NCBI GenBank assembly: GCA_013407085.1
Contig: JACCGJ010016141.1
Coordinates: 1 to 64,000 of the forward strand
Direction: 5' to 3'
DNA: 64,000 nucleotides
From: Atriophallophorus winterbourni
Lineage: Eukaryota > Platyhelminthes > Trematoda > Plagiorchiida > Microphallidae
Made by a program: the position numbers and the translations under genes. The notes below the pieces were generated by a model. That model searched no databases and was not told the DNA's origin. It worked only from the letters and a program-made list of their open reading frames with translations. Positions 1-60,836 of the stretch are shown one piece after another (position 1 is the stretch's first letter; the number at the start of each line of letters is the position of its first letter).

Positions 1-198
1 CACCAGGAGTGTCAATATACTAGGCTTATAACACAACTAAAATCAAATCGCTGCTATTTCCTGCATTATATATCTACGGTTTTGTATCGATTTGAATATG
101 AACATGCGATTTGGCAACTGGTCAGATATTGGATGATTATTGATTTGAAAGGAACTAATAAATTTTTGATAACAACAGCCTCGATAAAGTATTGTATT
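1..198. other. AT-rich sequence, nothing recognised
   Basis: No coding frame, RNA gene or repeat was recognised at the left edge of the window. Confidence 0.5.
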
Positions 199-402
199 TG
201 CTGATATCAAACTTGCCCCTTACACTTCACAACCGGTTTCTGACCGTTTGCAGTTGTCAAGTGGAGTCTGAGAGATTACGTTCACTGAGTATGTACCCAG
301 TCGAAAAGTAGAACATTCTCACAGCCACCGTTCAAAGGGGTTCGTGCAACAAACAGCGATGATCAACTGAAGAAGCACCTAGTGATTCTCGTTCAAGCAC
401 TC
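199..402 (-). mobile_element. Degenerate copy of the hammerhead-bearing short repeat
   Basis: Read on the - strand, this aligns by eye with the repeat seen best at 44511-44835 and 48486-49141. Shared words are CAGAAACCGG (complement of 231-244), the GTTCA..CTGA block around 280 and the GATTCT..CAAGCACTC block near 380-402. The ribozyme core CTGATGA is mutated here (CTTGACA), so this copy should be dead. No target duplication was identified. Confidence 0.55.
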
Positions 403-2430: not shown

Positions 2431-2885
2431 CCCAAGATTCACAGACAATTTAATTTAGGAGTGGGCAACTGACAAAATCACTTTTTTCTATTTTGAAGCA
2501 CCACCTGCCCAATCCCATTGGTAACTGAGTGACGTTGTGATACGTTTCAGCCTGCAGCAAGTTTTCGCATCATTTCGTTAAAAATTCTGTCCTTTCATTC
2601 GCCAAAAAATAGGCGTGATGTTCGCAGGGGGGTTAGTTTATGACACGCGCCGTCATTCGTGTGTTCGTTTGTTTGTATGCCAATGACTTTGGCACACACG
2701 ACCGCACCATATTTCATCCAATCAAACTCTCTCACCAACCCGAAAACTAAATCGTGGCACGCGAATGTAATCATTACGCACGCTTAAATTCCCCGTGCAA
2801 TGTTAAATTTTTTCGAAATTGCTCCGATAGAAAAATTGATCCCCAGTAAATAAATGAAGTCCACTTGCGCGGCCAATCAATATTC
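2431..2885. other. Upstream region of the LIM-homeobox gene
   Basis: This holds the sequence just 5' of the chosen start codon. An in-frame TAA at 2847-2849 limits how far the first coding exon can extend. A possible acceptor-like CCCCAG ends at 2846, so a 5' untranslated exon further upstream is possible. I could not identify a TATA box or initiator with confidence. Confidence 0.4.
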
Positions 2886-3277
2886 ATGGGATTATCTACT
2901 GAATTTTTGACGACACGATTTGTTCGACAAACGGAAATGCTGGAAAACAATCCTCGTTCTGGTTCGGCGATCAATGATGGCTTTGAGAAATGTGCCATGC
3001 TTGGCCAAGTGGTATCGATTACAAACGGGGGCAGAAATGTGTTCAACCTCACCTCTCCGAATCATGATTCGTCGTTGTTTGTACGAACATTGCACAATAA
3101 ACAAGATTGTCTTCTATGTACCGAATGCCGTGAACCGATAATCGATCAATTTTGCTGCAGTATTGAACATCAATACTGGCATCAAAGTTGCTTGAGGTGT
3201 GTAATTTGCAGCAAGCCTCTTTCTATCAGGTGCTATGCACGCGATGGCCGCTTGTTTTGCCGGGATGACTTTATGCG
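2886..3277 (+). CDS. lim1: lim1 exon 1: N-terminus and LIM domain 1
   Basis: The first ATG after the in-frame stop at 2847 is at 2886; a second ATG at 2937 could also serve. About 77 residues precede the zinc finger pair. The zinc ligands are C78, C81, H99, C102, C105, C108, C125 and D128. The exon ends in ATG-CG before the donor GTAAGT at 3278, splitting the Arg codon that joins LIM1 to LIM2. The reading ..DFMR then RFYGPKC matches the DFFRRFGTKC pattern of Lhx1/5 across the same junction. Confidence 0.88.
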
Positions 3278-21200: not shown

Positions 21201-24200
21201 TCTATCCACCGAAAATGCTTCACGCACACAACCTATGCACTTCACCCGAGGGCAGGACACCTCAGGACTGAGGAGGCGCTTGTTTTCAAATTAGATAAGC
21301 TTTTCATCCTAATTGAATAATATTATCATCATATTCGCATAGCTCACAATCAACTTGGTTAGAAAACACAAGCTGAAATCTGATTATTTTCAGAGATTTG
21401 TCAAGCACGTGAATGAATTGGATCGATTATAAATGCTGACAGAGTTGACGACGAAATTATGCATTACTGGATGCATTTACTAATGGTATTTGTCTTTGGT
21501 ATGAGACCCTACTCGTTTAGGAATTCTCGTGAGACAACTGAACAATTTCCGCTTATTAAATATACATAAATACAGAATATATATATATATATAACTGTAA
21601 AGTCAAAACAATAAATCGCTTATCAGTATAGTTATAAAGACATGTTCTCAAATATGGCCTTTTATATTCAAAGTTATGGGTAGAATGTTTCATTAAGTTT
21701 GGATTATCCACAAACCTATTTTAGTCTCTCTAATTATCAATGAAACTGACGTTCCAAATCAGGGTGTGTGATGCATGAGAGAGATATCAGACTTAGAGTG
21801 CGTTTCAGATACGTAATGAAATTTCGTAACAGCTGTATGCTGCTTATCCCACACTTTAATCATAAATGCCGTAAATATGTTTATTCAGTGCGTTTTTAAC
21901 GGGGAATTCTTTCTACGTAAACTCCACTATTTAAACTTTATTTATATTTAAACTAGACGATTATGTGAATTAATCCTGATGGTGGCTCGGCTTACCCTGC
22001 ATTACCTCATGAGGACTATTTCGTAACAATTTTGGCTTGTATATTTTGAATCTAGATCTCCACCCTCCAATGAAATGTGGCTTAATTAAAACCTGATTCA
22101 AAACATTAATAAAAATCAAAGCCCTTCGCGCCGGATATGTCAAAATCCAGAATATCATGGAAATATATATCTGGCTATAAAGACCAGTAACATTTCTGCA
22201 ATTGACACAACCTTTGCCTTGATTCATCTAACTTGTAAATTCAATCCATCACTTGATTAATTCTGGTCAAGATTTCATTTTTTCCTGTTTGGCTAGGTCA
22301 CTCATGATGAGAAATCTTGTCCGAGCTGCGTATTTTTGATGCTTCATTCATTTACGGTTGGTTGAATGTAATGAGATGATAAGCCTGTTTTGTCCTGCTT
22401 ATCAGGAGGAAAACATGCAGCCGCCCGGGGTACACACACGCACTCAAAGAGCATTCTCAAATATATTGTGTTCGCTTAGCCATCGCGCAAAACAAATCCT
22501 TTAAATCCTTCGATGACGCTTTTCACGTGGTCTAGTTGTTGATTTTTTCACGTAGCCGTGTTCTCGGCGAAGGAACGGCATCTCAACAAATGCTCATACA
22601 CAATGAGATTATTCCGAGCTGTGAGGATTATCAAAGTTTCTCATCGTGCCATGAAATATGGGTTGTGAATCAGCGTTGTCCAAAGTAAATTTCACACAGT
22701 AAACGATAGATCAATATATTTGGTACAACAAATTCAATGTTTAATTTCGTTAAGCAATTCTATTAGGCACATCTAATTTTTTAAACATTCCTAATTTACA
22801 CAAATAAAATATAATTGCTTGTATTGCATTAAATTAGGCGTCAACCATCTTATCAGTAAGTAGGATATAATAATTTGTCTGAATGATCACTATATTTTGT
22901 ACTCTATATAATATATTACTCGTGATATTAATAAACTTGTTCTTTCGAAATTATTTTATTTAGAACAATCAAAAAATAATAAGCAGCTTTAAAGTTAACT
23001 ATTTTAGATTGCTACTAATTCCTCGCCGTAATATGAATAGCTATGTTATGATTTCCGTTCTTGTAAAACAAGATCTGGAATGATATTTTGTAAATTAGAC
23101 TGAGGGAACCTTGCAAAAACATTTGCTGTAATCAAGTTTGATTGCCCCATTTATGTGTTTGCTGTGAGCAGCGTTGCTTCGCGGAACAATCCACAAGAAA
23201 TGAAGCTTATTTCAATAAGTATCAACGTTTTACTAGTTTTCTTAAGACTGAAAGCTAACAAAAAATTAATCAAGCACATTTATTTAAAAATTGCGTTCAA
23301 GGTTTGGTTTCAAAATCGTAGAAGCAAAGAGCGTCGAATGAAGCAACTCAATGCGCTCGGGCCGCGTAGAGGATTTTACCGCAATCCACGACGACTGAGA
23401 GGTATACGACCCGGAATTTTACCTTCAGATCTCATCAATGAATCGACTGTAGATCTTTTGAACAATCCGGCATATCACGGCTATTTGATGGAAACTAATC
23501 CTGTAAGTTATTTTGATCTCTATATTTTGGTGCTCAAATTTCCATCCTTTGCACACAACTACTGGTTTCTGGCTGTTTGCCGTCCTCCGGTGGAGACAGT
23601 TAGATCAGGTTCAGTGATCTCATTTAGCCGAGAGAACAAAGCAAATTTTAACAACACATATTACACAGCAATTTAATGGCATTACGATACCCAAAAATCT
23701 TTCATTGCGTTATACCGTACACGATCGAAAATGAGCGTTATACAAACGCTGCTATCAGATGTCAAAATGATCCAATCTTCATTCCAAATTTAGAAATTAT
23801 AAATCATAAAGAATGGGACCGATTACTTTCCATTTCTCAAAAACCAGATACGAATATATCAACGCATGGTAAGCGCGAGGGATTTGATCAAGTGTTAGAG
23901 AGCGATCCTTCTCTGTGCACTTCTGCATGAATCCAAAATAATTAGAATGTATACAATGTTCTACAAAGCATATATTATTGTTGGCCTCCGTCGGTCGATG
24001 TCGACCATGGATATACATCAAAATCGCATGAATTTCATGTTTTACAGCTTTTTGAATGACTAAACAGCCCGATTCGGGAGGAACAATCTCTCCCGCAGCG
24101 CTTGCAATTATACGCAGAACTCTGTTGTATTGCATCAGTTGCGGCAGCGTGATCTGCGTTCAGCAGACAAGAGCTGTATTTGCTCCTCCCTGGCTTGCAG

Positions 24201-27200
24201 ACGCCGCTTTACACAATGCCTCCAAAGTGAGCGGTCAAGAGCAAGTTCTTCCCAGCTTGCGGAGTCAGTGTCAAGAGCTTTCATATCTCTTTTGCGAACG
24301 TCTTTGTACCGCAAGTGCGGTCTGCCCAATGGTCGACTTCCTAATTGCAACTCACCGTAGAGTAGATCTTTCGGAATACGACCATTTTCCATTCTATAGA
24401 CATGACCAAGCCACCGCAGGCGGCGCTGACGTAATAGGGTGAACATGCTCTGTAGACCAGCTTTTGAAAGCACTTCAGCGTTAGTCACTCTGTCCATCCA
24501 CGATATGTTCAAGATACGACGGATGCTTCGTAGATGGAAAGCATTCAGCTTCCGTTCGTGTCTTGCGTGGGTGGTCCAGGTTTCACTGCCGTATAGTAAA
24601 GCATTTAGTACGCACGCGCTGTATACCATCATCTTTGTCTTTACAGTCAGCTTGCGGTTACCCCAACACGAGAGTTCAATCGGGACAAATGACAGCTGCT
24701 CTGCCAATCCGCTTATCAATCTCCGTGTCTAGCGCGAGGTTATCCGCAATGGTTGAACCAAGATATGTGAAATGATGTACTGGTTCGAGCTGACAGTTTC
24801 CAACACTGATGATTGGTGGCGATACAGTCCCTTGACCAAGGACTTTGGTCTTGCTCATGCTGATTGTTAGACCAAAGTCTTTGCATGCCGACGAAAAACA
24901 GTCCATTAGCGACTGTAGATTCTCTTGGGAGTTAGCAATCAAGGCTGCATCGTCGGCAAACAGCAGGTCACGGATTAGCCCATCCCGTTCTTTTGTTTGT
25001 GTTCTCAACCCGTTCATGTTGAAGAGCTTGCCATCACTTCGCGTGCACAGGTAAATACCTTCTGTCCTCGTCTTAAAAGCGTGCTTTAGAAGCAGAGCAA
25101 AGAAAATGTCGAACAGCGTGGGATCAAAAACACACCCTTGTTTGACGCCCAGTAGAATTTAAAAGGCTTCTGAGCTTAAACCCTCAAAATGGAATGAGCC
25201 CTTAATACCTGAGTGGAACAAAATAACAAGCTTGAGCAGTATTGGGGGGCAGCCTATCAAAACAAGCATATTGGAAAGACCCTCCCTGCTGTCGTAGTCG
25301 AATGACTTCATTAAATTTATAAAACAGCGTATAATGGCATACGCTGTTCCCGACACTTTTCTTGAAGTTGTCTCATGGAGAAGATCATATCAACGGTTGA
25401 TCTTCCCTTGCAGAAACCACATTGAGATTCGGAGTAACTTCTATCAGCTAAAACTTGCAGCCGGATCTGTAGACTTTAGCAAACAATTTGCCTACAACAT
25501 TCAGAAGGGAGATTCCACTGTAATTGTTGCAGTCGCCTCTGTCACCCTTATTCTTAAATAGCGTGATGATCTTTGTGTCTCGCATCTCTTGGAGGACACC
25601 CCCCTCCTGTCAGCGCAGAAGAAGCAAATGGTGAAGAGGTTGTAATGATGCTGCTCTACCGCATTTGATGAGTTAAGGTGGAATTCTGTCGTCACCAGGC
25701 GCCTTCTCATTCGCTAAGCGGTCGATTGCCATATTGAGCTCATCAAGAGTAGGAGGGGTATCTAGATATTCAATGGTCGACAACCGCTCGACATTTTCAA
25801 GTGCATGCGGTAGAACCGTACTGTCTCTAGAGTAGAGGGAGGAGAAGTGCTCTACCCATCTTTCCATCTGTTGAGTTTTGTCGACAATCGGCTTACCAGA
25901 TAAAGACTTAATGGGAGCCGTTTTAAGTTTATTTAGGCTAATGGCTCTCTTGATCTCATCATACATACCGTGAAAATGTCCGGTATCCGCAGCTTTTTGG
26001 ATATTGAGGCTAACTTCAGTCCAATAGTCGTTTGCAATCGCCGGTTGGACCTTATTTCTAGCTGCTCTTAGAAAACGTATGTTTTCATCTGTTGGCATAC
26101 CTTTGAACCTCAAGAATGCTGACCGTTTCTCATCCAATAGAGCAGTCATCTCAGAAGCATATAGCATCACTTAAATAATTGATTGTATTAATAAAGTATT
26201 TATAAGTATAGAGAATTGGAAAACGAATGATTTGATAAAACTCTTCAATTTCATATTAGATTGGCTCGATGTTCGATTTTTCTAGAGGAAAAAGACATAA
26301 ACCAACTAAAAATAAAAAAGTTTAGGTAAGAGAAATATATAACCAGCGCAAATTGATGTCTGTCAAGTATCATTGCCACAGATTAGCGGGTTTATCAATC
26401 CGGCGCGGCATGTCATCAACAATATTTTTCTAGAGTGTTGTGTTCAAAAGAGTACAATTTTGATATTCCAATCTCAATACTAAATTCATCTAAAGGTTCT
26501 CCAAGTTGTTCTACGTAACATTTGAACTGAAACATGCCGAATCATAAACAATATTACAATAATCGATAATACGCAATAACGGCGAAAACGAAAAAAATCC
26601 AGCTGCCAAAGTCTTGATCTTGATTCTGCAGTGAATAATTTCGATCAACACTGCATATAAATCTATATGACGTATTTGAATGGCTACTTTTTGAGTTTAT
26701 ATATACAATGAGGCTTTACGGGTTTATATTTACTTCTGCGATGCTGGCTGCCCGGCAAAGTAGAATTTTTTCTTTTACAAACTGCGCGATTTTCGTTAAA
26801 AAGTTATTAGCATTCACACAGCCTCTTTTCATATTTTTGTTGTAGCCTTGAAGTTATGAGCACTATGGTAGCGTATTTTGCGATTCCGGTTTAAGAACAA
26901 GGGCTTTTTAGGGTCACTAAATGGGCCTTAGTTAAGCGTGTATTTTACGAAAGCGACCGACATTCCTATCGTGGGTTTAAGAGTGGCAACTGATGAGTTA
27001 TAGTTTAAAACAGTATGACAATATCTGTAGGCCAACTTGAATATTCTACAAAATATTTAAAAAACCTTGTCAGCTATGCAATGCCCATTTGATAATTGAT
27101 GATTCTACAATTGTTTAAAAATAATCAGACAGAATAAACTTTGAATGTAACCATCAAAATCGTTTGGTCAGCTCAGCCACAAAAGTTGGATTTTGGCTAC

Positions 27201-29044: not shown

Positions 29045-29270
29045 ACTATTAAAGTAGGGTGGACGGTAGCCCAGGTCGTTAAGGCATGGGACTACAATGG
29101 TGATGGTCGGGGGTTCGAACAGCACCCGAAGTTAAGGATATGTACTGCTGATGAGTTCAAATAAGAGCGAAACTCGAGTCCAGTGCTTCCATTATGGACC
29201 GTCGTGATCAACGTTGTGAATAATTCGATGGGCTTGGCACGGATGGGTAGTCACAAATACTATTAAAGTA
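29045..29270 (+). mobile_element. tRNA-derived SINE with 12-bp target duplication
   Basis: The element occupies about 29057-29258 between perfect copies of ACTATTAAAGTA (29045-29056 and 29259-29270). Its first ~70 bp are tRNA-like, with an A-box-like GGTAGCCCAGGTCG and a B box GGGTTCGAAC, the internal promoter of RNA polymerase III. The remaining ~130 bp are a tRNA-unrelated body ending near GGGTAGTCACAA. It codes for nothing. Perfect duplications suggest a fairly recent insertion. SINEs depend on a partner LINE, but I could not match its tail to the LINEs in this window. Confidence 0.8.
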
Positions 29271-36923: not shown

Positions 36924-38695
36924 TCAAATGTAAAGCTCACTAATGATGTTCGTTTGCAAGTGCAAGTCCAATTTCGCTTTAAAAATCGCCAGGCAAGTAG
37001 AGTCCACCACATGCTGGGGTAGGGATTTCCAAAGAAATATAGCTCGTACGGCGAAAAAATGGCGCCGACAATCAATACGAGATCTTTGAAAGTAAAGGGA
37101 TAAGGTGTGTCCGCGTGTCACTTTTCCATCACATACATCAAGCAAGTGTTTTAGTGGATGTCCTTCGGTAGACACAATTCTATAGGTCAGAAGAATATCG
37201 CGTCGTATCCTCCTTTGGGTAAAGTCACATAGACCCAGACGTCGCAGTCTTTCGGTATACGGAACATTGCGAAGACCCATCACTAACTTTGTTGCTCTAT
37301 GATAGATTTTATCGAAGAGAGCAATATCTTTTCGCAGCAAAGGAGCCCAGACCTCGACCGCATACTCCATCGTAGGGTGAAGGTAGACATTCATTATCCT
37401 CGGTAACGTTACCAGAGAGAATCTTCCAAATATTCTTCGAACGATACCTAACAATCTGTTGGCCCGTCAATATATATTCTGGCAGTGCACTGTGCTCTTC
37501 AGGTTTCCACTAATTCACACTCCATGATCTTTTTCTAACGAGCTCCATGCTAGGTTTTCAGTTTTCAATCGATATGTCAAAGGAACATTCTTGCCAAGAT
37601 GGAGCATTTTACATTTCTGTATGTTGAAGGACATGTCATTCACGGCCGCCCAATTCGACACGCTGTCCAAATCCATTTGGAGTTTCTCACAATCCTCTGC
37701 AGAACTAATAGGCGTCCAAATTTTCATATCAGCCGCGAACAGGACCATTATAGACGATATGAGATGGGGTCAAATCGTTTATGTACAACAGGAAGAGGAG
37801 CGGTCCTAACACAGATCCTTGTGGGACTCCACTGGTGGATTTGAACGTTTGTGATAGCACTCCGTTAACTTTAACTCTGGCGTCGCGATCTGACAGATAC
37901 TCGCAAAACCATGAGAGGAGTGGTTCATATATTCCTGAACGCAGCAGTTTTTGAAAAAGCAGATGATGATTGACTCTGTCAAAAGCTTTCGAAATGTCTA
38001 GGTAACAGACGTGGATGCAAGACCTTCTATCCAACTCCTTCGTCCAGTCGTCTAAGCTATGAAAAGATTTGTGAGACAGGATCGGTGATATCGTAATCCA
38101 TGCTGTGCTGGCGAAAATAAATTAAGCGATTTAAAGTGTGCAACCATTCTTTTCGAGAATATACTTTCCATGACCTTAGCAATAACAGGTAAAAGTGTGA
38201 TGGGACGATACTTTGCAGCGTCAGATCAGTAGCCGCCTTTAAAGATAGGTGTTATCACTCCGGACTTCCAATCTTTTGGTACCACCAAGCAATGAATATT
38301 TAAACAGGCTGGAGATCTTTTCACAAACCGGAGCACATCCGGTGTAATGCCATCCGCTCCAGGGGATTTTCTTACATTTAGTTTCAGTAAATGACTTGCG
38401 ACAATCACTGGATTTATTGAAATATCGCACAATGTTTCGATTCCTGTTTCGTTTGAATACTCAGAACGTTCCACTAAAACCTTTGGCACGAACACTTTAG
38501 AATAGTAAATTGCCAGAGCATTTGCGGTTTCCAACGCTTTTTCAGTGAGTTTTCACCATTATGGATGGGAAAAATATCTGGTTTGAATTTTGCTTTCGCG
38601 TTCATTATTTTGTATAGTAACTTAGGGTTTCGTTCCATTTTTGACAGAAGCATCAATTGGTGCGCTTCCTTATCCTCTCGAATCAGTGCAGTCAC
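36924..38695 (-). pseudogene. CR1 ORF2, reverse transcriptase part
   Basis: Pieces in order on the - strand: SKMERNPKLLYKIMNAK, then RKSPGADGITPDVLRFV, VVPKDWKSGVITPIFKGG, YLDISKAFDRVNH (first catalytic Asp), GVPQGSVLGPLLFLLYINDL, VLFAADMKIW and PTMEYAVEVWAPLLRKDI through RRLGLCDFTQRR. The palm motif that should read FADD is FAAD, removing a catalytic aspartate, and several frameshifts and a stop separate the pieces. It cannot encode active enzyme. Confidence 0.88.
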
Positions 38696-38810: not shown

Positions 38811-39930
38811 TTAATCTAGTACTTCTCTAAATCGGTGTTCTAGCGTTTGTGTGGAGTGATCGTCCCTGAGATAAAGGGTGGACAGATTAAAATCACACAT
38901 AATAAGTGTAGTTGCTTGTTGTGTGTGAGTCAAGCGCTGAAGCACTTGGATTAACCTTTCGTTGTACGATTCCGTAGATGAAAGGGATGGGTAGACCACA
39001 CCAATAATGCAAACTTCACCAGACATCAGCGTTAAGTAACACCAAATTGTATCCTAGAGCGTGAATTCTGTCTTGTCTATTGGATGGCACTGCAGTCGAT
39101 TATGGTAATAAAGAGCAACACCACCACCACTCCTCTCTCGATCGTTTCTTATCAAATTCATATTTGGAATTGATATATCCGTTTCAATCAATTGGGAAGA
39201 ATACCATGTTTCTGTAATGGCGATAATGTCAGGTGAGTAGCGCGAACATATCTCGGTTAGTTCAGCTAATTTGTTTGGAAGGCTTTGTGCATTTGTATAT
39301 AAACATCTTATAAAGTTTGTGATATTCAAATCATAAAAAGTTATCAATGGTCTGACTCGGTTAGAGTCGGAGTGCTCAAGTTTTTTGGAAGCAATCACTT
39401 GACATTCAAGCTGATCCTCATCACTAGGCGTTTGTGGGTCGGTACTATCCGTTTGCTTGCTTTCGGCTTTTACCCTGGGCAAGTTGAACTTGACGTTTTG
39501 GGGTAGGTTTCTTCTATTAGCTTTCCATTCACGTTTGATAGTATCAGTCATTTCGGTTGTCAAGATGGTTAGCTTTAAAGGGTTAGGACCTTGCCCTTTA
39601 TAGTTGGGAGACCGCGGTATTATAAATACATCCACAAGTATGGCATTTTTAATACGAATTGTTTCGGATAGACATTTCCACTGTTTGAGATCTTGCTCAG
39701 ACTTTTCTTGAGATGGAACGTCAGCAGCATCTTCCGGAACACTTAGAATTACAGCAGTTCTTGGATTACTTTCTTCTCGAGATTTCTGCGACAATTTTCG
39801 CTCCCAACATGGTAAGTCTGCATGGATACGACATGTAGTCTCTGGATCACCTCCAAGAAGGTAAGTATTTAAGAGCACTTTTTCCACGTCCTCCGCAGAT
39901 TGCAGCGTTATTCTTAAAAGGCGAGGATCA
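38811..39930 (-). pseudogene. CR1 ORF1 3' part and AP-endonuclease relic
   Basis: One open stretch (39887-39054 and its upstream continuation to about 39925) encodes a hydrophilic ORF1-like segment that runs into LYTNAQSLPNKLAEL and IIAITETWYSS, the first endonuclease motifs with the catalytic Asn and Glu. After a stop, CIIGVVYPS and LIMCDFN follow, where CDFN stands for the usual GDFN. The distal endonuclease, including the SDH box, is missing or unrecognisable near 38700-38810. Confidence 0.75.
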
Positions 39931-43059: not shown

Positions 43060-43655
43060 TGCATTTTGAGGCCAACTATAAGCATGCACGAAACGTACTC
43101 GGCTTACTCGGACGAATTTTCGGACGCTTCCCGCTGAAATCACTCAATACATGGATACACTAATATGGGGACTATACAGCGCAAGCTTGGGTACCATGGT
43201 TTAAACAAGATATCTCGCTGCTCAAAAGGATTCGCTATTAAATAACTAAAATGTTTACCGGATTGTATAATAACCCCTTTGAGCAGTGAATGGCTAGACT
43301 CGGACTGTGCACTCTCGAGCCTGAGCGAATAAGAACAGAACTTATCTTGGGATGCCGAATAATCCATACGACGTTCCTCCTTCTCAGAAACCCATTTTAT
43401 GTTGGTTGCAGTTTCCCCAGAACCCGATTACAACCTATTCAGTGCTTTTATGCGTATGGTTTCTATTGGTAGTTTACATCCAGAAATTGTTCTCATCAGT
43501 GCCACTATTCACGCCCTTCGATATTTTCAAAACTGGAATTACTATTACTCCTTCTTAGAACGACAATGATGCCAAATAGCAAGTATGACTTATTTACATA
43601 CTCTGGCATTGTACGGCTATTTGCTTTTTTCACCATAAATCTTGAATCCTTAATC
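43060..43655 (+). pseudogene. CR1-like 3' fragment
   Basis: The + strand reads VLGLLGRIFGRFPLKSL, then AQAWVPWFKQDISLLKRI and MARLGLCTLEPERIRTELI with stops and frameshifts, paralleling GIVRRIFGRFSLVTL, WAPLLRKDIALFDKI and RLGLCDFTQRRIRRD of the 36.8-kb CR1. It ends with CATAAATCTTGAATCC (about 43636-43651), the same 3' tail. It is the same CR1 family, 5'-truncated. Confidence 0.75.
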
Positions 43656-44510
43656 TCGCGTTTAACCTAGACCGTGGCATAACTATAAATGCTCGATTAT
43701 TCAAAAACATCGACTAACCAATTAATAGATGTTTGTTTATTTCATGTTTTAGAGCTTTCAAATTTGTGATTAGCTAATACCACCATACGCATCTCGAGTT
43801 CGCTTTGAGTATAATTATTCGCCTCTCGCATATTTCACTTCGAAAAAATCGATAGGATTTTGGCGAATAATGTTTATTTCTCCAACTGTGCAGTGAACTG
43901 GAATCAGCGGTTTAGCAAGAGGCAGTGTAATCTATCACGGTCTACTGACTGCTTCGAAGGTGTGGATATTGTTAATTCGTATTAGTTCGTCTCAATTGTC
44001 CGCGAATGTTTGTGGATATTTGCGCACAATGGATATTAACACTCATTTGTTTTGTGCGATAAATAAATGTCTCTTATGAAACACTGACTCATGCTGCTAA
44101 TGAAAATGCTGATTTTCAACTTGGTTTGATTTATTACTTGTATGCAACTGTTGTTGCATATACCAAATATTCTGTATAATAAATAAGACAGTAATAGTTT
44201 TGCATATATTTACCGTTCTTGATAAATATACTGAGTGAGTACTATATAGTGCAGAAATCAGTTCAAGTTACAGTCTATTTGTTGCTTGCTAATAGATTGA
44301 AATTGATTACTGAACTCGCAGTCTCATTGCTATTTTGCAGGAATACATCTGGCCAGTTTGAGTTTTCGCGATTTCTAACACGTGGTATTTTAATTTCATT
44401 ACGAAAAATTATCATTTAAATATTGAGAATCTGTTATTGATATATATATATCATTGATTTGCTTAAAATTGCGCTATTATTCACTGTTGAACTAAAATAA
44501 ATTTACCAAT
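43656..44510. other. Intergenic, nothing recognised
   Basis: AT-rich sequence without recognisable coding or repeat structure. Confidence 0.4.
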
Positions 44511-44835
44511 GTATTGTGGTGCTCACATCCTCATCCCTTGCACACCACTACCGGTTTCTGGCTGTTTGCCTTCATCAGGTAGAGACAGTAAGATCAGGTT
44601 CAGTGAGACTTGAAACAGTGGAAAAGCGGTAAACAAAGTTAAACGTGTATGTCACTGTTATTTAAGGTGCTTACAAATAACCACGCTGTTCAAATACAGA
44701 AACACAAAGTGATTCCTGGCGCATATAAATGACCAATATATTGTGGTGCTCATATCCCCGTGTCTTACACACCACATTGGTCTGTTATATGCGCCTCGAG
44801 CGCATGACCAGGAATCACCTTGTTATTCTGTATTT
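44511..44835 (-). mobile_element. Hammerhead-bearing repeat, about 1.3 tandem units of 227 bp
   Basis: TATTGTGGTGCT starts two units at 44512 and 44739. The first unit holds the best-preserved ribozyme core in the window: on the - strand CTGATGA (44578-44572), a GGC/GCC stem II with AAACA loop, GAAA (44558-44555), then the palindrome ACCGGT and A, with CTAC before and GTGG after pairing as stem I. The second unit switches orientation near 44778 into the CTCGAG..AGGAATCAC block. Not protein-coding. Confidence 0.75.
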
Positions 44836-47800
44836 AAAATAAATATAGTATCAAAAACTCAATATATTTCCTGTGCTTATATGGTAAATATTCTGAGTAT
44901 TATAAATATTCTCGTTATTCCATTTTATTACACCTAATTCTAAGAATTTGCAGGTTATCCACATATAAGTGTTCTTTATGAAACAATGGAGGATTCTACA
45001 ATTAAAATTTTCTATCTGAAAAGGATAAAACATAATTGATTTTCATCGAATAATTTCATGTTTTCTGCTGGAATAAATGTGCCATGTAGATTAATACATG
45101 TATTTAAATCAATTCTAGAATGGTTCCGCGATTGCTTAACAGAAACGATGTTTTCTCATAATTCTTATTCCAAATGAATATTCTGGTTTTGTTTTTTGAT
45201 TCATTTTAAGTCCAATAATCGTATTCTGTGTTTACAATGAATTCTCATCTTACGACCGTTTCCGTGTTATTCCGATTTATTTAGAGATGACGCTACGATC
45301 AGGATCTCCGTGCAATAAATCCTGTTACAAGCCACTACCACCGTTCAAATAATTCGGACCCATATACGTTTGACTCAGGCAAATAGAAAATAGTTAGAAA
45401 TTATCATTACTCAATATTACGCAGTATTCAATTAAAAAGAAACACTAAATTATTCGAATAGATCTGCATTTGAACTTAAATTTATGTAATATTCGCTACA
45501 ACATTTATATGCTCTTTTCAAATATATAATTTACTATTGAGCAATATCATTTAACTGGGAAATACCAAATGTGATTTGGTTCTCGTGAATGAGAACGAAA
45601 CGAATTGCTCTCCACGATATAAAATAATTAAGGCTACAGATTGTGATCAATAATCACTTCATATTATGTAACATTTTACAATCAACCTTTCACTTTAGCA
45701 ACGATTTGATAAGTGATAGCTGCAAACCTATATGTGACGCCAAAAGACTAATTTGTGGTGAATTGTCTTGAGCAGACCCGTGCTTATTGAGGCGAATATT
45801 TTCACTCTGGGGCCGTCAGACACCCCACAAGTGTTGCATCGACATTGATACGTGGCTGCATTAGACAACTCCTTACGTTGTCTCAAAATCAGTCAACATA
45901 CTACAGTTTCTCGCAAAGTTGGCAGCTGAGCACATAACGCCTGAGCAACCCCGTTTGTGAGGCCGGTTTGAGGGTTCGCGTTCGCCAACTTTCTGATGAC
46001 GCAAACTTCGACCTGTATTCCCATGGGGTGATTCGACAAAAGCAAGACCTCATGCCTCAGGGGGAAATTAGGAAACAAAGCGCGATACAAAAATAAAGAT
46101 TTGAGTTTCGTTCCAAAACGAGTGAGTTATTTTGATGTATTTACATACAAAAATATATTGACTATGCGTATTAGATGGAGACACGAATCAATCCCGTGAA
46201 ATCATTAACTATTTCATTATTTATATCATCAATGTGTAACAAAATGCATATGTACATTTTTAAAATCTGTATTGGATCGCAAATAATTGATTACTGAATC
46301 CCATTGTCGTTTTCAACACGATATAATCTTTTTTATTTATTAACTTTTAAAACGACCAGTTACATTGTGCAAAGATGCGTATGAATTTTGATTTCGTTTC
46401 CATGCATAGTTATTTTATTTGGTGTTCATACTAATGCGTAGATATCGTTATAGATAAGACCCAGAATTATTCTCCAACTGGGATCACATAAGTGGGAAGA
46501 AATTGGCCACATTAATTATTACATATTCGAGGAAAATTGCTCATTTGCTACTTCAAATATAGCTTTATGTGTGGAATAAGCCAAGTGTTAAAAATTGATG
46601 CAAGGTACCACCTAACACTATTTGGAACACTATTAGAACACTATTTTAGCAATAAACTGATGACAGCGATGATGGTTGATTTTCGATTGAAGTCAGAATC
46701 TATAATTGAGTAGTATATGAAATTCGACTGAAGCGCGTGATCCGTTTCAAGGTTAATGCCACTCACCAGGTATGCGTATTGGTGACATGACATTAGATTT
46801 GCCTTCCGACTGTTGGCTAAACCCTATGAACGCTTGAGTAATTTTAATAAACTCCATCCACATTTTATTTAAATGTTAATATTTTGCTAGCATTATTTTG
46901 AAGAAACGTCCAGCATTACGGGCACAGGTAGATTTTCGTATTCTGAAGTGCTAAACAATGCATTTACTATTCAGAATTCTAGTCTTTCATAATTCATCAC
47001 ATATCAGCACATATTTTGTAGGGAAGGAATGTATAATTAGAAATAATCAATTGAGTCATGTGCTGAGATGAATGTGAGCCATGATTGCCGGTGAACCATC
47101 GAACCCATTCACTTGAATGTGTGTAACCAGAGTGAATAATGTTCAAGGCAAATAGGTCAACTGAATTAGTTTTTCCTACGCGATTAGGCACTACTTGGAT
47201 TAAGTTCGACCATTTTTGGTAAGGCTGATTGTACTTGCTAAAATGAAGGGATGTAACATTATATTCCCTGTTATCATCATCGCTTTGGGTATGACGAAGC
47301 ATGTGCATTAAAATCACAGTGTCGAACTTAAATGGATTAAATAGTTTTCTCAGAAATATACTTCAAGTGCATGTTATGAAATATATTTTCTAAAAGATTT
47401 CGACCTGTATGCTGTTAAGCATTCCCACAATTTCATCCTTGTTAAATAGCGGATTGTCAAGACATTCAATGTAAGGTCTATTTACGTATAGGCATTTGCT
47501 TCAAAATAATCAAAATAACCCTGTCGTAAGTACAACTCCTATTAGTATTTCGAAAACAGAAACAAAATATGCTGAATGAAGCAAATGTGTTCGCATAATG
47601 TCTTCCATTCAGATCATATATAAAGATACATCAGAAGCAAGTGAATAGCTGTTCCACCACGGTCAAATAGATATGCGTTGCCTATATACTGACGGCCAAC
47701 AAATGTCCGAAGTAACCAAACGATTAATTTATAAATTGTAAACAAAGTTGATAGTCAAAATCTAGAATCTCACAGGCAGTAGATGATGAGAATGGAAGAT

Positions 47801-48485
47801 GAACTTGCGTTTCGTGAATGTTATTTTTATCCATCAGAAAATGCTTAGCAATCTCAGGTCAACTGCGACATAACGAAAACCAAAGAGGACTAGCCTGGTA
47901 GCGTTGTCGTTACAAAAGTTAATCCATTTTGACCAACGTGTTCGGACTATGAATGCGGGATTAATATAAATTCCTCATGAATATATACAAGAAAGCTGAA
48001 TTTAGTAGTATTGTCAACGAATAAGATGATGAAGAAGAAAATGACTTTATTCGTGCAAACGAATTTTCAGCAAATTAAATTAATTTCTCCACAAAGGCTA
48101 GAAAATTTGAAATGTATAAAATTACACAAGCCTGTTCCATGCAAAATAAAACATTATAAATACTGTACGTGGGTCAAAATATTGTCAGGTAACCCAGCCC
48201 TAGACAGACACGCAAATAAAGTTAAAAAATGAAGTTAGAAAATTGATAAAGAGTTCTCAACATCGGTTATCAAATTGTCAGACGCATCTTCAACTGTGAA
48301 ACAACCATGGATTCACCAAACAAGTATGGTAGCTGATAAGGGACAAGAGAGTTTCAGAATTTATTATTACTTAACTACGGAATAAAATATTGGATTCCAA
48401 ATGAGGAAACATATTTGCAGGCAAAAATGGTCTTGTTCAGTGGATGCGAACTATCAGAATAAAACAAAGATATACTTGAATGCCA
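44836..48485. other. Intergenic, nothing recognised
   Basis: About 3.6 kb of AT-rich sequence. Short frames (for example 46997-47317, 48011-48232) lack domains. A GC-richer patch near 45880-46060 is unrecognised. Confidence 0.4.
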
Positions 48486-48680
48486 CTGTTGCATAGGGTT
48501 CGTTCAACGAACCACGATGTTCAAACACAGAATCTTTTATTGATTTTTGGTCAAGCACTCATGTGCTTATGTATGACAAAAGTCATATGTTGCTCACATT
48601 CCCCGCACTTACACACCACTACGGGATTCTGGCTGTTTTTCGTCATCAGGTGCAGGCAGTAAGATTAGGTTCATTAAGCC
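48486..48680 (-). mobile_element. Inverted copy of the hammerhead-bearing repeat
   Basis: The - strand carries CTGATGA and CAGAATCCCGTAGTGG, a slightly mutated ribozyme core, then the GATTCT and GGTTCG blocks. It abuts the direct array that starts at 48681, forming an inverted junction. Confidence 0.75.
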
Positions 48681-49141
48681 TTCACACCGGTAGTGGTGCG
48701 TAAGTTTAGTAGTGCGTAAGTGTGTACAACACATTAATTTAGTCATCTATAAGCGCCTCGAGTGCTTGACCAAGAATCACTTTGTGATTCTGTGTCTGAA
48801 CATCGTGGTTCGTTGTACGAACCCTATATAACAGTTGGCATACAAGTATAATCTTGTTTACCTTTAATCCACTGTTTCAATGCTCACTGAACCTGATCTT
48901 ACTGTCTCCACCTGACGTCGGCAAACAGCCAGAAACCGGTAGTGGTGTGTAAGGGATGGGGATGTGAGCAACACATTACTTTGGTCATCCATAAGTGCCT
49001 CGAGTGCTTGACCAAGAATCACTTTGTGATTCTGTGTCTGAACATCGTGGTTTGTTGTACGAACCCTATATAACAGTTGGCATACATGTATAACTTTGTT
49101 TACCTTTAATCCACTGTTTCAAGGGTCACTGAACCTGATCC
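48681..49141 (+). repeat. Tandem array of the hammerhead-bearing repeat (about 1.8 units)
   Basis: CAAGAATCACTTTGTGATTC recurs at 48771 and 49013, a 242-bp period with very high identity over some 125 bp. The stretch between the two CCGGTA|GTGG sites (48693-48941) is one monomer of 249 bp. The second ribozyme site (48901-48950) has stem I CCAC/GTGG, GGC/GCC stem II, GAAA and the ACCGGTA end, but the core reads CTGACGT, with the invariant A9 changed. The monomer also holds the hairpin AGAATCAC/GTGATTCT. No coding capacity. Confidence 0.8.
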
Positions 49142-49540: not shown

Positions 49541-49626
49541 GTATAAAAGTATCTTGAGCACGTGATCAGGAATATCTCTGTGATGCTGCAATTGAATTCT
49601 CAGTTCGCTGTTTGAACCCTATGCAC
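49541..49626 (+). mobile_element. Degenerate fragment of the hammerhead-bearing repeat
   Basis: TTGAGCACGTGATCAGGAAT, then CTCTGTGATGCTG, GTTCGCTGTTTGAACCCTAT follow the order CTTGACCAAGAATCAC, TGTGATTCTG, GTTCGTTGTACGAACCCTAT of the array at 48.7 kb. It contains no ribozyme core. Confidence 0.5.
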
Positions 49627-52084: not shown

Positions 52085-54372
52085 AACCTCAATAACAGCT
52101 TGCTTCGCGTAGGTGGAGGTCGTAATTTATGAAGGGGGTCAACCCATGAAAAGGAAAACCCTTATCAGAAACCTCTACTGCTTGTGGCTACATACAATCA
52201 TGGAAAAGGCATCAGGATTCAGCCTAAAGTAAAAATCCGGAGCCGAAGTCCCAATAGGCATTCCAAAGATGTATTCAACTTCGTCCTGCCAGCTCCAGCG
52301 ACGGCATCGTTGTTCAAATCTGTCAGCCTAGCTGTTACTTTGGTTCTGATGGTGCCGTAGAGAGGAAGCCCTCGCTGCATGGACACAGCTAGTTCTCCAT
52401 ATTGAACTGCCTTGCGTACATCTTAATACACCAATAGAGGATAAATTCGATTCGACTCCTATTGTAGCAGCAGATACCGGTTAAAGGCTCTGACTCAGCG
52501 CCTGAGACTTCTTTGACAGTAGTAAATATTTTCCGGTCTTATTTAACAGATACTGCCTGCTTCAAACTGGACAGCCCCTTATCAATAAGTTGCCTTCTTG
52601 CCACGGTCTGCTATCTTCATTGGGTGCATGGAAAATAGAAATCAACCGACAAACGGTCTTCATCTTTTCTTACCAGCAAAAGGAATTACAAAGCAACTCA
52701 GATCAGCTCCAAAACCAAAGATATGGAAAGTCCGGTCCATACTTTCAGGATTTCATGACGACGTCTCGAATATTAGAGGCGTAAGCGAATCAGCTGTGAT
52801 TAACAATGAGCTAAAATGGCTGAAGGTCGACGTGGCTCCGCTGGAAGAAACACGATTACTCGACACTGGTTTGCTAACCGGAAAAGATTACATATTGTCT
52901 GGAAAAAAACGGATTTGGATGATCCTCGACCTCATGGAGTTGGGTTTGCCTTGCGAAACAGAATTATAAAATCAGCATAATCGAGCCGCAACGGGAGTGA
53001 ACGAATTTGGACTCTTAATCTGAAGTGCATTACTGGTACCATTATGTTGATCAACGTTTATGTACCTACACTCTCTGCGACACCACCTGAAAAAGACGCT
53101 TTTTATCAAAACCTCACAACAGTCCTCAAAAACCTGCCACAAAAAACTGTGTAGTGGTATTGAGTGATTTCAATGCCAGGGTTTGTACAGATTACGAGTC
53201 TTGGCAAAACTGATCTGGAATTTTCTGAATAAGTAAAACCAATGAAAATGTACAACGCATTTAAGAACTATGAACACAGTTCAGTTATTGTGTAAATAGC
53301 AAATTCTTTCATACAATGCCAAGACGTCAAACAAGGGTGTGTTCTTGCTCACACGCTTTTCGGCATTTTCTTTACTCTGATTCTGAAGCACGTTTTGAAA
53401 CGACAACAGGAGACGTTTACCAACGCACGCGAAGTAATGGCAATTTTTTAAACCTGACTGTTTTTCCTCGGCATGCAAAGACTTTGGCTAACTATCAGCT
53501 TGAGCAAGACCGAAATCCTTGGTTAAGGGACTGTATCGCGCCCAATCATCACTGTTGGAAACTGTCAGCTTGAAAGAGTACATCATTTCGTATATCTTGG
53601 TTCAACCATAGCGGATAACCTCTCGCAGAGATTATTAAGCGGATTAACAGAGTAGCTCTTATTTTGTCCTGATTAAGCTCTCGTGTTGGGGGTAACCGCA
53701 AGTTGATTGTAAAAAAAGATGATGGTATACAGTGCATGCGTACTAAATGCTTTGCTGTACGGTAGTGAAACCTTAACCATCCACGTAAAACGCGAACTAA
53801 AGCTGAATGCTTCACATCTACGAAGCATCCGTCTTATCTTGAACATATTGTGGATAGACAAATTGACTAATTCGGAAGTGCGTTCAAAAGCTGATCTACA
53901 TAGTTTGTTCAGAGTACCAAGACAGCGCCGCAAAAGGAGGCTTGGTAACGTCTAGAGAATGGAAAAAGATCGTATTTGGAAAGATCGAATCTTTGGTGAG
54001 TTAAAATCAGCAAGTCGACCATTGGGCAAACCACTTGTGATACCAAGACATTTGCAAAAGTGATATGAAATCCCTTGGCATTGACCCCGCGAGTTGTGAA
54101 TAATTTGCTCTTGAGGGCTTACTTTGGATGCATTGTGTAAAACGTCGTCTGCAATCTGGGGAGGAGCAAATACAGCTCTTGGCTGCTGAACGCAAATCTT
54201 ACCACCGGCATAAAACTGACGCGATCGACTGTTTATAGTTTATCGCGGATGAGATTGTTCTTCCTGAATCGATCTGCTTATTCATTAGAAAATATGTTGA
54301 TCAAGAAAATACAAGCAATTGTCTTGTACATCCAAGGTGTCTTCGCCCAAATGGAGGCAAACAACAATAAAA
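52085..54372 (+). mobile_element. Decayed RTE-like copy with 5' leader and internal deletion
   Basis: This copy extends about 500 bp further 5' than the intact one and so shows the element's leader (about 52085-52590, with GAGCCGAAGTCC and a GGAGGTCGTAATTTATGAAG start region). The endonuclease is recognisable (FHDDVSNIRGV; VDVAPLEETR; ERIWTLNLKCITGTI) but broken. Near 53306-53316 homology jumps from the endonuclease straight to the GVKQGCVLA block of the reverse transcriptase, a deletion of about 1.4 kb relative to 57.5-60.8 kb. The C-terminal part ([14 protein letters not shown] onward) and CAA-rich tail follow. Multiple stops. Confidence 0.85.
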
Positions 54373-57504: not shown

Positions 57505-60500
57505 CGCCACGGTCTGCTATCCTCATTGGGTGCATGGGGATTAGGAATCAACCGACAAGCAGACTGTTATTTCCGCACCAGCGAAACCAACTACGAAAAA
57601 ACAAACGTCATTTCTGAAACTGGGAACCTGTAACGTCCGGTCCATGCTTCCTGGATTTCACGACGACGTCTCGAATATCAGAGGCGTAAGAAAATCTGCT
57701 GTTATTAACAACGAGTTAAAGAGATTAAAGGTCGACGTGGCAGCCCTACAAGAGACGCGATTACCAGACACTGGTAAGCTAACAGAAAGTGATTACACAT
57801 TCTTTTGGAAAGGAAGGGGTTCTGATGAGCCTCGACTGCATGGAGTTGGGTTTGCCGTTCGAAACGACCTTCTAAACGCAACAGAACCGAGCATCAGCGG
57901 GAGCGAACGGATTTGGACTCTAAATCTGAGGTGCATTACTGGTACCATTACGTTGGTAAACGTTTATGCGCCGACGCTCTCTGCGACGACTACTGAAAAA
58001 GACGCTTTTTATTACAACCTCGCAACAGTCCTGAAAAACGTGCCACAAAGAAACTGTGTAGTGGTATTGGGTGATTTCAATGCTAGAGTTGGTGCGGATT
58101 ACGAATCTTGGCAAAGCTGTCTCGGGAAATTCGGTGTAGGTAAAACTAATGAAAATGGACTACGCCTTTTAGAATTATGCACACAGTTCAGTCTCTGTGT
58201 TAGTAACACTTTCTTTCAAACAAAACCACAGCATAAGGTCTCTTGGAAACATCCTCGCTCTAAGCACTGGCACCAGCTTGATCTTATCCTTGTTAGGCGC
58301 ACTAATATAGGAAGCGTACTTTTCACCAGATCATATCAAAGCGCAGACTGTGACACTGATCATTCACTGGTTTGTGCAAAACTGAAGCTTTCCGACACGA
58401 GATTTCACCGCACCAAATTGTCTGGTAAGCCTAGGATTGACGTCACCCGCATGTGCGAACCTAATCTAGCTGCGCGATTCGCAAAAGCCTTCACAGCCGA
58501 GTTCAGCAAGACAACCCCACTTGAATCGGCTTCAGAAAACTGGGAATCGATTAAAAACAGCATATGCCGAGTCGCACTTTCCACTTTCGGTCCGAAGAAA
58601 GCTCGAACTAGCGACTGGTTCGAAGCAAAAGCTTCTGAGATGACTGCTGTGTTGGATGAGAAACGGTCAGAATTCTTGAGGTTCAAAGGTATGCCAATAG
58701 ATGAAAACTTACGACTTTCAAGAGCAGCCAGAAATAAGGTCCAACAGACTGCAAGGCGATGTGCAAATGACTACTGGACAGAAATTAGCCTTAGTATCCA
58801 AAAAGCTTCGGATACTGGAAATTTTCACGGCATGTATGATGGGATCAAGAGAGCCATTGGTCCAAACAAACATAAAATGGCTCCCATTAAGTCTGTATCT
58901 GGTGACCCGATTGTGGACAAAACTCAGCAGATGGAAAGATGGGTAGAGCACTTCTCCTCCCTCTACTCTAGGGACAGTACGGTTTTACCACATGTATTTG
59001 AAAATGTCGAGCGGTTGCCGACTATTGAATATCTAGATACTCCCCCTACTCTTGATGAGCTCAATAGAGCAATCGACCGCTTAGCGAATGGGAAGGCCCC
59101 TGGTGACGACGGAATTCCACCTGAGCTCATCAAATGCGGTAGAGCAGCATTATTACAACCGCTTCACCATTTGCTTCTTCAGTGCTGGCAGGAGGAGTGT
59201 GTCCCACAAGAGATGCGAGACACAAAGATCATCACGCTATTCAAGAATAAAGGAGATAGAGGCGACTGCAACAATTACAGAGGAATCTCCCTTCTGAATG
59301 TTGTAGGCAAATTGTTTGCTAAAGTCTCACAGATCCGGCTGCAAGTTTTAGCTGATAGAATTTACTCCGAATCTCAATGTGGCTTTCGCAAGGGAAGATC
59401 GACCGTTGACATGATCTTCTCCCTAAGACAACTTCAAGAAAAGTGTCGGGAACAGCGTATGCCATTATACGCTGTTTTTATTGATTTAACGAAGGCATTC
59501 GACTACGTCAGCAGGGAGGGTCTTTTCAAAATGCTTAATTTGATAGGCTGCCCACCAAGACTGCTGAAGCTCGTTATTTCGTTCCACTCAGGCATGAAGG
59601 GCTCAGTCCATTTTAACGGTTTCAGCTCAGAAGTCTTTGAAATTCGCCGAGGCGTCAAACAAGGGTGTGTTCTGGCTCCCACGCTGTTCGGCATTTTCTT
59701 TGCTCTACTTCTGAAGTACGCTTTCAGGACGAGAACAGAAGGTATTTACTTACGCACGCGAAATGATGGCAAGCTTTTCAACCTAAACCGGTTGAGAGCA
59801 CAAACCAAGGCACGAAATGTGCTAATCCGTGACCTGCTGTTTGCCGACGATGCAGCCTTTATTGCTCACTCCCAAGAGCACCTTCAGTCTCTAATGGACT
59901 GTTTTTCGTCGGCATGCAAAGACTTTGGTCTAACAATAAGCATGAGCAAGACCAAAGTCCTTAGCCAAGGGACTGTATCGCCTCCCATCATAACTGTTGG
60001 AAACTGTCAGCTTGAATCAGTACATCAGTTCACATACCTTGGTTCAACCATTGCGGATAACCTCTCGCTAGACACGGAGATTGATAAGCGGATTGGCAGA
60101 GCAGCTGTCATTCTGTCCCGTTTGAACTCTCGTGTTTGGGGTAACCGCAAGCTGACTGTAAAGACGAAAATGATGGTGTACAGCGCGTGCGTACTGAACG
60201 CTTTACTGTACGGCAGTGAAACCTGGACCACCCACGCAAGACACGAACGGAAGCTGAATGCTTTCCATCTACGAAGCATCCGTCGTATCTTGAACATATC
60301 GTGTATGGACAGAGTGACTAATGCTGAAGTGCTTTTAAAAGCTGGTCTACAGAGCATGTTCACTCTATTGCGACAGCGCCGCCTGCGCTGGCTTGGTCAT
60401 GTCTATAGAATGGAAAATGGTCGTATTCCGAAGGATCTACTCTATGGTGAGTTGCAACTAGGAAGTCGACCATTGGGCAGACCGCACTTGCGGTACAAAG

Positions 60501-60836
60501 ACGTTTGTAAAAGAGATATGAAAGCTCTTGGCATTGACCCGGCGAGTTTGGAAGAACTTGCTCTCGACCGCTCACATTGGAGGCACTGTGTAAAGCGTCG
60601 TCTGCATGCTGGGGAGGAGCAGATACAGCTCTTGGCAGCTGAACGCAGATCACGCCGCCGACGTGCAACTAACGCAATACAACCGAGTTCTGACTATCTT
60701 TGCCAGCGCTGCGGGAGAGATTGTTCCTCCCGAATCGGACTGTTTAGTCACTCAAAAAGCTGCAAAACTTGAACTTTCACGCGTTTGTGATGTACATCCA
60801 TGGTCGACATCGACCGAAGGAGGTCAACAACAACAA
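57505..60836 (+). mobile_element. RTE-like non-LTR retrotransposon with intact coding frame
   Basis: The element starts abruptly at about CGCCACGGTCTGC, 5'-truncated relative to the 52-kb copy, and ends with a short 3' UTR (64 bp) and an (AAC)n-type tail. It contains one open frame. Short 3' UTR, single EN-RT protein and simple-repeat tail fit RTE-like elements; exact clade needs a phylogeny. I see only a weak 5-bp candidate duplication (AATCG), so flanks are not proven. Confidence 0.9.
57644..60772 (+). CDS. RTE-like endonuclease-reverse transcriptase (1042+ residues, uninterrupted)
   Basis: Nicks target DNA and copies its own RNA there (target-primed reverse transcription). The AP endonuclease covers about residues 1-245: QETR with E37, GDFN at 143-146, TDH at 238-240. 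The reverse transcriptase follows at about 440-800: NYRGISLLN, QCGFRKGRST, YAVFIDLTKAFD, RRGVKQGCVLAPTLF, FADD at 733-736 and FTYLGSTIA. Then [10 protein letters not shown] and a C-terminal finger C1020-x2-C1023-x12-H1036-x3-C1040. All catalytic residues are present. The frame is open upstream to 57545 without ATG, and the endonuclease Asn in GTCNVRS lies just before the first ATG, so the true start is unclear. Confidence 0.92.
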   Translation: MLPGFHDDVSNIRGVRKSAVINNELKRLKVDVAALQETRLPDTGKLTESDYTFFWKGRGSDEPRLHGVGFAVRNDLLNATEPSISGSERIWTLNLRCITGTITLVNVYAPTLSATTTEKDAFYYNLATVLKNVPQRNCVVVLGDFNARVGADYESWQSCLGKFGVGKTNENGLRLLELCTQFSLCVSNTFFQTKPQHKVSWKHPRSKHWHQLDLILVRRTNIGSVLFTRSYQSADCDTDHSLVCAKLKLSDTRFHRTKLSGKPRIDVTRMCEPNLAARFAKAFTAEFSKTTPLESASENWESIKNSICRVALSTFGPKKARTSDWFEAKASEMTAVLDEKRSEFLRFKGMPIDENLRLSRAARNKVQQTARRCANDYWTEISLSIQKASDTGNFHGMYDGIKRAIGPNKHKMAPIKSVSGDPIVDKTQQMERWVEHFSSLYSRDSTVLPHVFENVERLPTIEYLDTPPTLDELNRAIDRLANGKAPGDDGIPPELIKCGRAALLQPLHHLLLQCWQEECVPQEMRDTKIITLFKNKGDRGDCNNYRGISLLNVVGKLFAKVSQIRLQVLADRIYSESQCGFRKGRSTVDMIFSLRQLQEKCREQRMPLYAVFIDLTKAFDYVSREGLFKMLNLIGCPPRLLKLVISFHSGMKGSVHFNGFSSEVFEIRRGVKQGCVLAPTLFGIFFALLLKYAFRTRTEGIYLRTRNDGKLFNLNRLRAQTKARNVLIRDLLFADDAAFIAHSQEHLQSLMDCFSSACKDFGLTISMSKTKVLSQGTVSPPIITVGNCQLESVHQFTYLGSTIADNLSLDTEIDKRIGRAAVILSRLNSRVWGNRKLTVKTKMMVYSACVLNALLYGSETWTTHARHERKLNAFHLRSIRRILNISCMDRVTNAEVLLKAGLQSMFTLLRQRRLRWLGHVYRMENGRIPKDLLYGELQLGSRPLGRPHLRYKDVCKRDMKALGIDPASLEELALDRSHWRHCVKRRLHAGEEQIQLLAAERRSRRRRATNAIQPSSDYLCQRCGRDCSSRIGLFSHSKSCKT

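Follow-up and report, generated by a model that had tools for sequence, protein, structure and literature searches.

The repeat family and the closest described systems

Penelope-like elements (PLEs) and metazoan retrozymes are the described systems closest to a short repeat family that we analysed in the trematode Atriophallophorus winterbourni, within positions 1 to 64,000 (forward strand) of contig JACCGJ010016141.1, assembly GCA_013407085.1. All inference on the repeat comes from this single 64-kb stretch, hereafter the window. According to PMC3846280, PLE inserts comprise two direct pseudo-long terminal repeats (pLTRs) and an adjacent head-to-head inverted pLTR, with palindromes at the inverted junctions; duplications of 8, 9 and 10 bp are given for three instances and none for others. 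The rotifer PLE of the same source possesses a 218-bp pLTR and a 31-bp tail, with up to 22 codons of the open reading frame (ORF) located in pLTR plus tail, and the flatworm Perere clade is described as the closest to the rotifer PLEs. Members of the Penelope/Poseidon clade, including the flatworm member Perere-10, harbor minimal type I hammerhead ribozymes in their pLTRs. In the green-anole PLE presented in PMC11167929, the ORF begins at stem II, the hammerhead cut is located 26 nt downstream of the start codon, and reverse transcription starts internally at a stem-loop, 111-118 nt into the ORF. Metazoan non-LTR retrozymes, as described in PMC7229834 for Acropora, Mytilus and axolotl, are 170-400 nt long with a low GC content. 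Among the axolotl ribozymes of that source, stem III of HHR_Amex1 is reduced to one pair and a palindromic tetraloop, while HHR_Amex2 exhibits a U.U mismatch and a weak base of stem II.

The repeat is most likely not a new kind of thing. It is a real, old retroelement family, probably a non-coding derivative of a Penelope-type element with a decayed dimer-type hammerhead. The full explanation that we favour, tentatively and with a little less than even confidence, is that of an old retroelement family that is both non-coding and non-autonomous, that either descends from a PLE of the fluke or owes its mobility to one, and that retains a worn dimer-type hammerhead. The motif itself would plausibly have been a dimer-type hammerhead ancestrally and is now mostly decayed.

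Comparison of the window with itself supports the dispersed and tandem, non-coding, retroelement-like family proposed in the first-pass annotation, with a unit of 242-249 nt and a GC content of 42-44%. The window contains one head-to-tail tandem (48686-49141, plus strand), two head-to-head inverted junctions and nine copies spanning the hammerhead-like motif, named A (48884-48984) to I; a further copy, J, lacks the motif. Direct-repeat detection yields a period of 242 nt, while the tandem period measured from 48686 to 48935 is 249 nt, a discrepancy explained by tandem unit 1 exceeding unit 2 by 7 nt near its start. BLAST of 48681-49141 against the window recovers the loci at 44511, 48486 and 48681, together with those at 23529 (E 3e-26), 199/402 (5e-17), 6771 (a tandem pair, 4e-6 and 1e-6) and 17221 (0.002). 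Seven of the eight loci that had been listed at the outset are thereby supported; the eighth, at 49541, corresponds to copy J (49547-49622, plus strand) and is weak when taken alone (E 0.29). Exact-pattern searches outside the window, in viral and general genome contig collections in which fluke DNA is not expected, yield no match.

The likeness to the PLEs of the Penelope/Poseidon clade lies in the ~245-nt unit, the direct tandem with head-to-head copies, a 10-bp duplication, a dimer-type hammerhead-like core that in some copies contains an AUG, and clustered internal 3' ends. The PLE-like arrangement of direct units with a head-to-head inverted copy is present at 44503-44834 and at 48462-49141, with no ORF between the direct units. 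The repeat differs from these elements by a mismatched first pair of stem II in every readable copy and by a core that is mostly decayed.

The hammerhead-like core

The best core is found in copy B at 44549-44578 on the minus strand. It comprises CTGATGA, GGC/GCC, GAAA, ACCGGT and A, and reads CTGATGA-A-GGC-AAACA-GCC-A-GAAACCGGTA from 44578 to 44549, with CTAC before and GTGG after, exactly the letters initially reported. A single frame accommodates CUGAUGA, a stem II GGC/GCC closed by the loop AAACA, GAAA, a stem III A-CCGG-U, the cleavage triplet GUA and a stem I GUGG/CCAC, which can be prolonged over a small internal loop by GUAAG/CUUAC. In copy B, stem I can be extended across an internal loop (CUUAC..CUAC with GUGG..GCAAG, one A.C mismatch); this extended stem, covering 44537-44592 (minus strand), is read from the sequence and is not part of the monomer minimum-energy fold. 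In natural type I hammerheads, stem I likewise continues past a small internal loop. The majority consensus of the window copies, taken from the alignment, has both CTGATGA and GAAA, and can be drawn, as had been suggested, as a type I hammerhead of the dimer type with a palindromic A-CCGG-U stem III. The A15.1-U16.1 pair is retained in seven of the nine copies. In its one-pair stem III with a palindromic tetraloop the motif resembles axolotl HHR_Amex1, and in its weak stem II base HHR_Amex2.

An AUG occupies core positions 6-8 in three of the eight copies inspected, namely B, C and G. That of copy B is located 27 nt upstream of the predicted cut, as compared to 26 nt in the anole PLE; since the frame that it opens is short and interrupted, no coding claim is made for it. 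It may be speculated that the A at position 11.1 (copies A-E and H) reflects ancestry, as it would pair with the U of a start codon if this had the location that it has in the anole PLE. Copy E shows a change of core C3 to U together with G8 to A. The same C3/G8 to U/A covariation is found in nature according to PMC3088659; in a decayed copy these two transitions are also easy to obtain by chance.

Several observations speak against the motif being a hammerhead. CUGANGA and GAAA are both intact in only one of the nine motif-bearing copies, copy B, the one called the best core at the outset. A9 is changed in copy A and U4 in copy D, copy C has GAAU and broken stems, and copies F to I are worn. 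The stem II closing mismatch, raised as a caveat when the motif was first noticed, is general: the 10.1-11.1 pair is standard in none of the eight copies with both letters, being C.A in A, C, D, E and H, A.A in B, G.G in G and U.U in I (F is gapped at this position). A U.U mismatch at the first pair of stem II is natural and the best-performing mismatch in PMC3088659; the C.A state of five copies is outside the U.U precedents known from that source and from HHR_Amex2. Rfam returns no hammerhead in the repeat, including searches with 161-nt and 686-nt pieces at E up to 10. The minimum-energy fold of the copy B monomer pairs CUACC with GGUAG and is not a hammerhead; in that of copy A stem I forms, while the core CUG pairs with CGG. 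The energies of these folds are ordinary (z of -0.5 for B and +0.1 for A), RNAalifold finds no structure on the copies, and folding copy B as a dimer does not recover the hammerhead arrangement. The ribozyme of the window copies is mostly decayed and probably inactive or very weak.

These same results are what would be expected if the repeat were of an ordinary interspersed kind, the fossil of a non-coding transposon, whose likeness to a hammerhead is due to chance and whose common letters merely reflect the kinship of the copies, an explanation that we consider unlikely. The lone intact core, the absence of any standard 10.1-11.1 pair and of an Rfam match, the non-hammerhead monomer folds and the lack of an RNAalifold structure all fit it. 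Conservation fits it as well: compared with the remainder of the unit, the motif region scores higher in six of eight copies when gaps are counted and in five of eight when they are ignored, which is not decisive. When pairs were shuffled 500 times over the nine decayed copies, 20, 130, 82, 46 and 35 shuffles reached the five observed measures. Paired cells amount to 72.8% of 151 stem cells against 27-43% in slid controls, the structure itself having been drawn from the consensus. On the other side, stems I, Ib and II and the A-CCGG-U stem III all fit one frame, and both inverted junctions described below lie at, or at most 7 nt from, the predicted cut. A descriptor tolerating a mismatched first stem II pair is also rare in random sequence: a single match occurs among 150 windows generated by a first-order Markov model (0.007 per window, not a clean p-value since the descriptor was designed after the motif had been seen). 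In the window it matches the core at 44578 and a second site at 29148, the latter being the sole match of the strict descriptor. The core pattern with up to three mismatches occurs at three places in the window and in none of 100 shuffles. Finally, a hand-mixed, consensus-like 59-mer folded as a dimer forms the full double hammerhead, in which ACCGGU/ACCGGU, stem I and its extension are intermolecular, stem II is formed and the core is unpaired.

The site matched by both descriptors belongs to a short interspersed nuclear element (SINE) at ~29060-29240 (plus strand, bounds set by eye), which resembles SMalpha, a known schistosome element, and which the first-pass annotation had not mentioned; a tRNA-like head is visible by eye. 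Its ribozyme, at 29142-29186, is detected by Rfam above threshold (36.5 bits for a threshold of 34) and serves as a positive control for the searches of the repeat. SMalpha is the hammerhead-bearing W36.2 of PMC8490949, the hammerhead family being RF00163. Together with the LIM and homeodomain exons described below, this SINE gives the sequence a schistosome-like character, of which it is the main support. The repeat and this SINE share the idea of a type I hammerhead and their presence in the same window; the SINE has an Rfam-detectable ribozyme and the tRNA-like head, whereas the 249-nt repeat has no Rfam match. The SINE site is not among the BLAST matches of the repeat unit in the window, and an SMalpha or Rfam hammerhead inside the unit was rejected, short pieces giving no match even at E up to 10. 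It is very improbable that the repeat is one of the known schistosome W-element families with hammerheads (W25.2, W26.2, W27.2) or another catalogued repeat. Such elements are abundant, as PMC8490949 lists four families with hammerheads, and the autosomal fragments of each number tens of thousands; their monomers measure 399-428 bp (W25.2, W26.2, W27.2) and 332-335 bp (W36.2) as compared to ~245 nt here.

Insertion anatomy

The insertion that carries the best core, insert B, spans 44503-44834. From one end to the other, it is formed by a direct arm (44503-44775, minus strand), consisting of one unit with a small deletion followed by ~46 nt (unit position 1..44 in the alignment), and by a head-to-head inverted arm (44776-44834, plus strand, by inverted-repeat detection; the aligned span is 44777-44838, its last 4 bases overlapping the duplication). 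An exact 10-bp target-site duplication, TAAAATAAAT, lies flush with both ends, at 44493-44502 and 44835-44844. Only 0.6% of random AT-rich flank pairs (n=5000) share at least 10 bp as insert B does, and the insert looks like the product of a single event. A DNA transposon of the miniature inverted-repeat type (MITE) was rejected, since the two extremities of insert B do not form a pair of terminal inverted repeats.

The direct arm of insert B starts, at 44775, with GTGGTG, the first base past the predicted cut, and the neighbouring base leaves the unit sequence. Because the hexamer GTGGTG is common to both arms, the inverted arm could result from the snap-back of a complementary DNA (cDNA) end CACCAC onto GTGGTG. 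At the second junction, inverted copy C (48462-48687, minus strand), which keeps CTGATGA and has GAAT and broken stems II and III, meets the direct tandem within ACCGGT, 6-7 nt upstream of the predicted cut. Tandem unit 1 (48686-48934, plus strand, by repeat detection and alignment) begins at ACCGGTAGTGG; unit 2 (48935-49141, plus strand) is incomplete, and the core with the changed A9 straddles the unit junction (48912-48945). Under a uniform null applied post hoc, the chance that both head-to-head junctions fall at most 7 nt from the predicted cut is 0.0036, and 0.0005 when one of them is in addition required to be exact. This placement of the head-to-head junctions at the predicted cut is an intriguing and testable detail of the repeat.

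Part of the 3' ends of the copies cluster. Among the nine that were counted (B, C, D, E, G, H, I, J and the tandem), those of five copies (B, D, E, G, H) lie 31-48 nt past the cut (p ~0.01 under a uniform null, post hoc) and four cluster within 12 nt (p 0.037). The clustered ends are located 58-75 nt, or 19-25 codons, from the core AUG position, near the 22 codons of the rotifer PLE. Copy D has a 7-bp repeat at its ends, TGATCTC, found on the left at 23514-23520 and on the right at 23615-23621, where it overlaps the apparent end of the element; 2% of random pairs do as well. The mention of Penelope elements made when the motif was first noticed agrees with this anatomy, which inclines towards Penelope and, in the case of copy B, towards a linear template over a circular one, because the direct arm runs past one uncut site before it stops at the cut.

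A metazoan non-LTR retrozyme, namely a tandem repeat with dimer-type type I hammerheads that release monomers to be ligated into ~245-nt circular RNAs, reverse transcribed probably by PLE enzymes, is a serious though rather unlikely alternative identity for the repeat. The non-coding tandem unit falls in the 170-400 nt range, and its size, tandem layout, GC content and palindromic tetraloop on a one-pair stem III fit the description in PMC7229834. Folded as a circle, the natural 249-nt unit is moderately stable and exceeds its shuffles in stability (z of -2.6, and -1.8 for the reverse strand). The stop of the insert B direct arm at the cut, beyond one uncut site, is more readily explained by a linear cut template than by a circle, and the only hammerhead with intact core strands is the mismatched one of copy B. 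The repeat further differs from metazoan retrozymes by its decayed ribozyme and by the head-to-head inverted arms at both main loci.

In the Penelope-derived explanation, the 242-249-nt unit would be a PLE pLTR plus tail, and the motif a worn form of the minimal dimer-type hammerhead retained by PLEs close to their start codon. The tandem would be transcribed, and neighbouring motifs would pair through the self-complementary ACCGGU and be cut at GUA^GUGG. Reverse transcription may then begin inside the RNA, ~40-50 nt past the downstream cut and near the foot of a possible stem-loop, as suggested by the shared 3' ends, and would run back to the ribozyme-made 5' end, as suggested by one junction. 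The head-to-head junctions point to a cDNA end that would fold back and prime the inverted arm. The product would join AT-rich target DNA with a ~10-bp duplication, as seen for copy B. The stronger proposal that the insertions record hammerhead cleavage, in that reverse transcription stops at the ribozyme-made 5' end, the cDNA snaps back and the junctions mark the cut site, is in our view improbable.

A number of results do not sit well with this scheme or with a Penelope origin. The tandem direct arm starts at 48686, 7 nt upstream of the cut, and therefore does not derive from a cleaved 5' end. At the other six of the eight loci, no target-site duplication above chance was found. The 3' ends at 58-75 nt are closer than the 111-118 nt of the anole PLE. 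Among the 23 ORFs of at least 75 codons located near the copies, 20 were scanned; these contain no PLE domain and gave one weak ERF match (E 0.0098). PLE domains are likewise absent from 10 ORFs scanned out of 21 listed for the window (five without a family, five with LIM, homeodomain or LINE matches, LINE standing for long interspersed nuclear element); the single RVT_1 match among the scanned ORFs belongs to a LINE with an endonuclease other than GIY-YIG. Furthermore, PMC11167929 reports that hammerhead mutants of the anole PLE still insert, cleavage being dispensable for insertion in vitro, and that no RNA-seq reads end at its cut.

For the crippled, dimer-dependent hammerheads that Penelope-type elements have kept, PMC7761336 calls the in vivo activity and role "still a mystery". 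If junctions in fluke genomes were to accumulate at the predicted cut, these genomes would themselves be a record of ribozyme use. Under the proposal that insertions record cleavage, the dimer-type hammerheads of PLEs would gain a direct job, that of making the 5' end of the insert.

Other copies and neighbouring features

The remaining copies are scattered over the first part of the window. Copy E (186-433, minus strand), which bears the C3/G8 double change, is a full, diverged monomer. Copies F and G (6732-7111, plus strand, by BLAST and alignment) form a decayed tandem dimer, and copy H (17204-17315, minus strand, likewise by BLAST and alignment) is decayed and 5'-truncated. Copy I (19466-19617, plus strand), identified by alignment, is decayed and weak, and was absent from the loci of the first-pass annotation. 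Copy D (23523-23617, minus strand) is 5'-truncated, its U4 being replaced by G, with the 7-bp repeat at both ends.

Besides the repeat, the window harbors a hairpin at 43216-43287 (minus strand) with near-perfect arms of ~12-16 nt (ACUGCUCAAAGG.../...UUUGAGCAG); its match to mir-8186 scores 21 bits, far under the threshold of 80. An uninterrupted LINE ORF of 1042 amino acids, with endonuclease and reverse-transcriptase domains, is found at 57644-60772 (plus strand). It displays 65% identity to the best protein among the matches listed, with no fluke name in the best 120 of 1094, and may be a recent insertion. The translations of two broken pieces, at 24135-26170 (minus strand) and 52598-52969 (plus strand), resemble it by eye. 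Two other fragments, at 36924-37454 (minus strand, no Pfam match) and 39054-39887 (minus strand, with an endonuclease/exonuclease/phosphatase match), maybe belong to another LINE family.

Three ORFs encode LIM domains (2865-3281 and 10955-11410) and a homeodomain (17682-18560, plus strand), and are probably exons of one Lhx1/5-like gene. A protein search with this sequence lists homeodomain proteins, and among the best 120 of 1451 matches one from Schistosoma margrebowiei is 94% identical to the homeodomain part, the alignment covering no more than 16% of the query; a search for related loci found no relative. Repeat copies F/G and H sit between these LIM and homeodomain ORFs.

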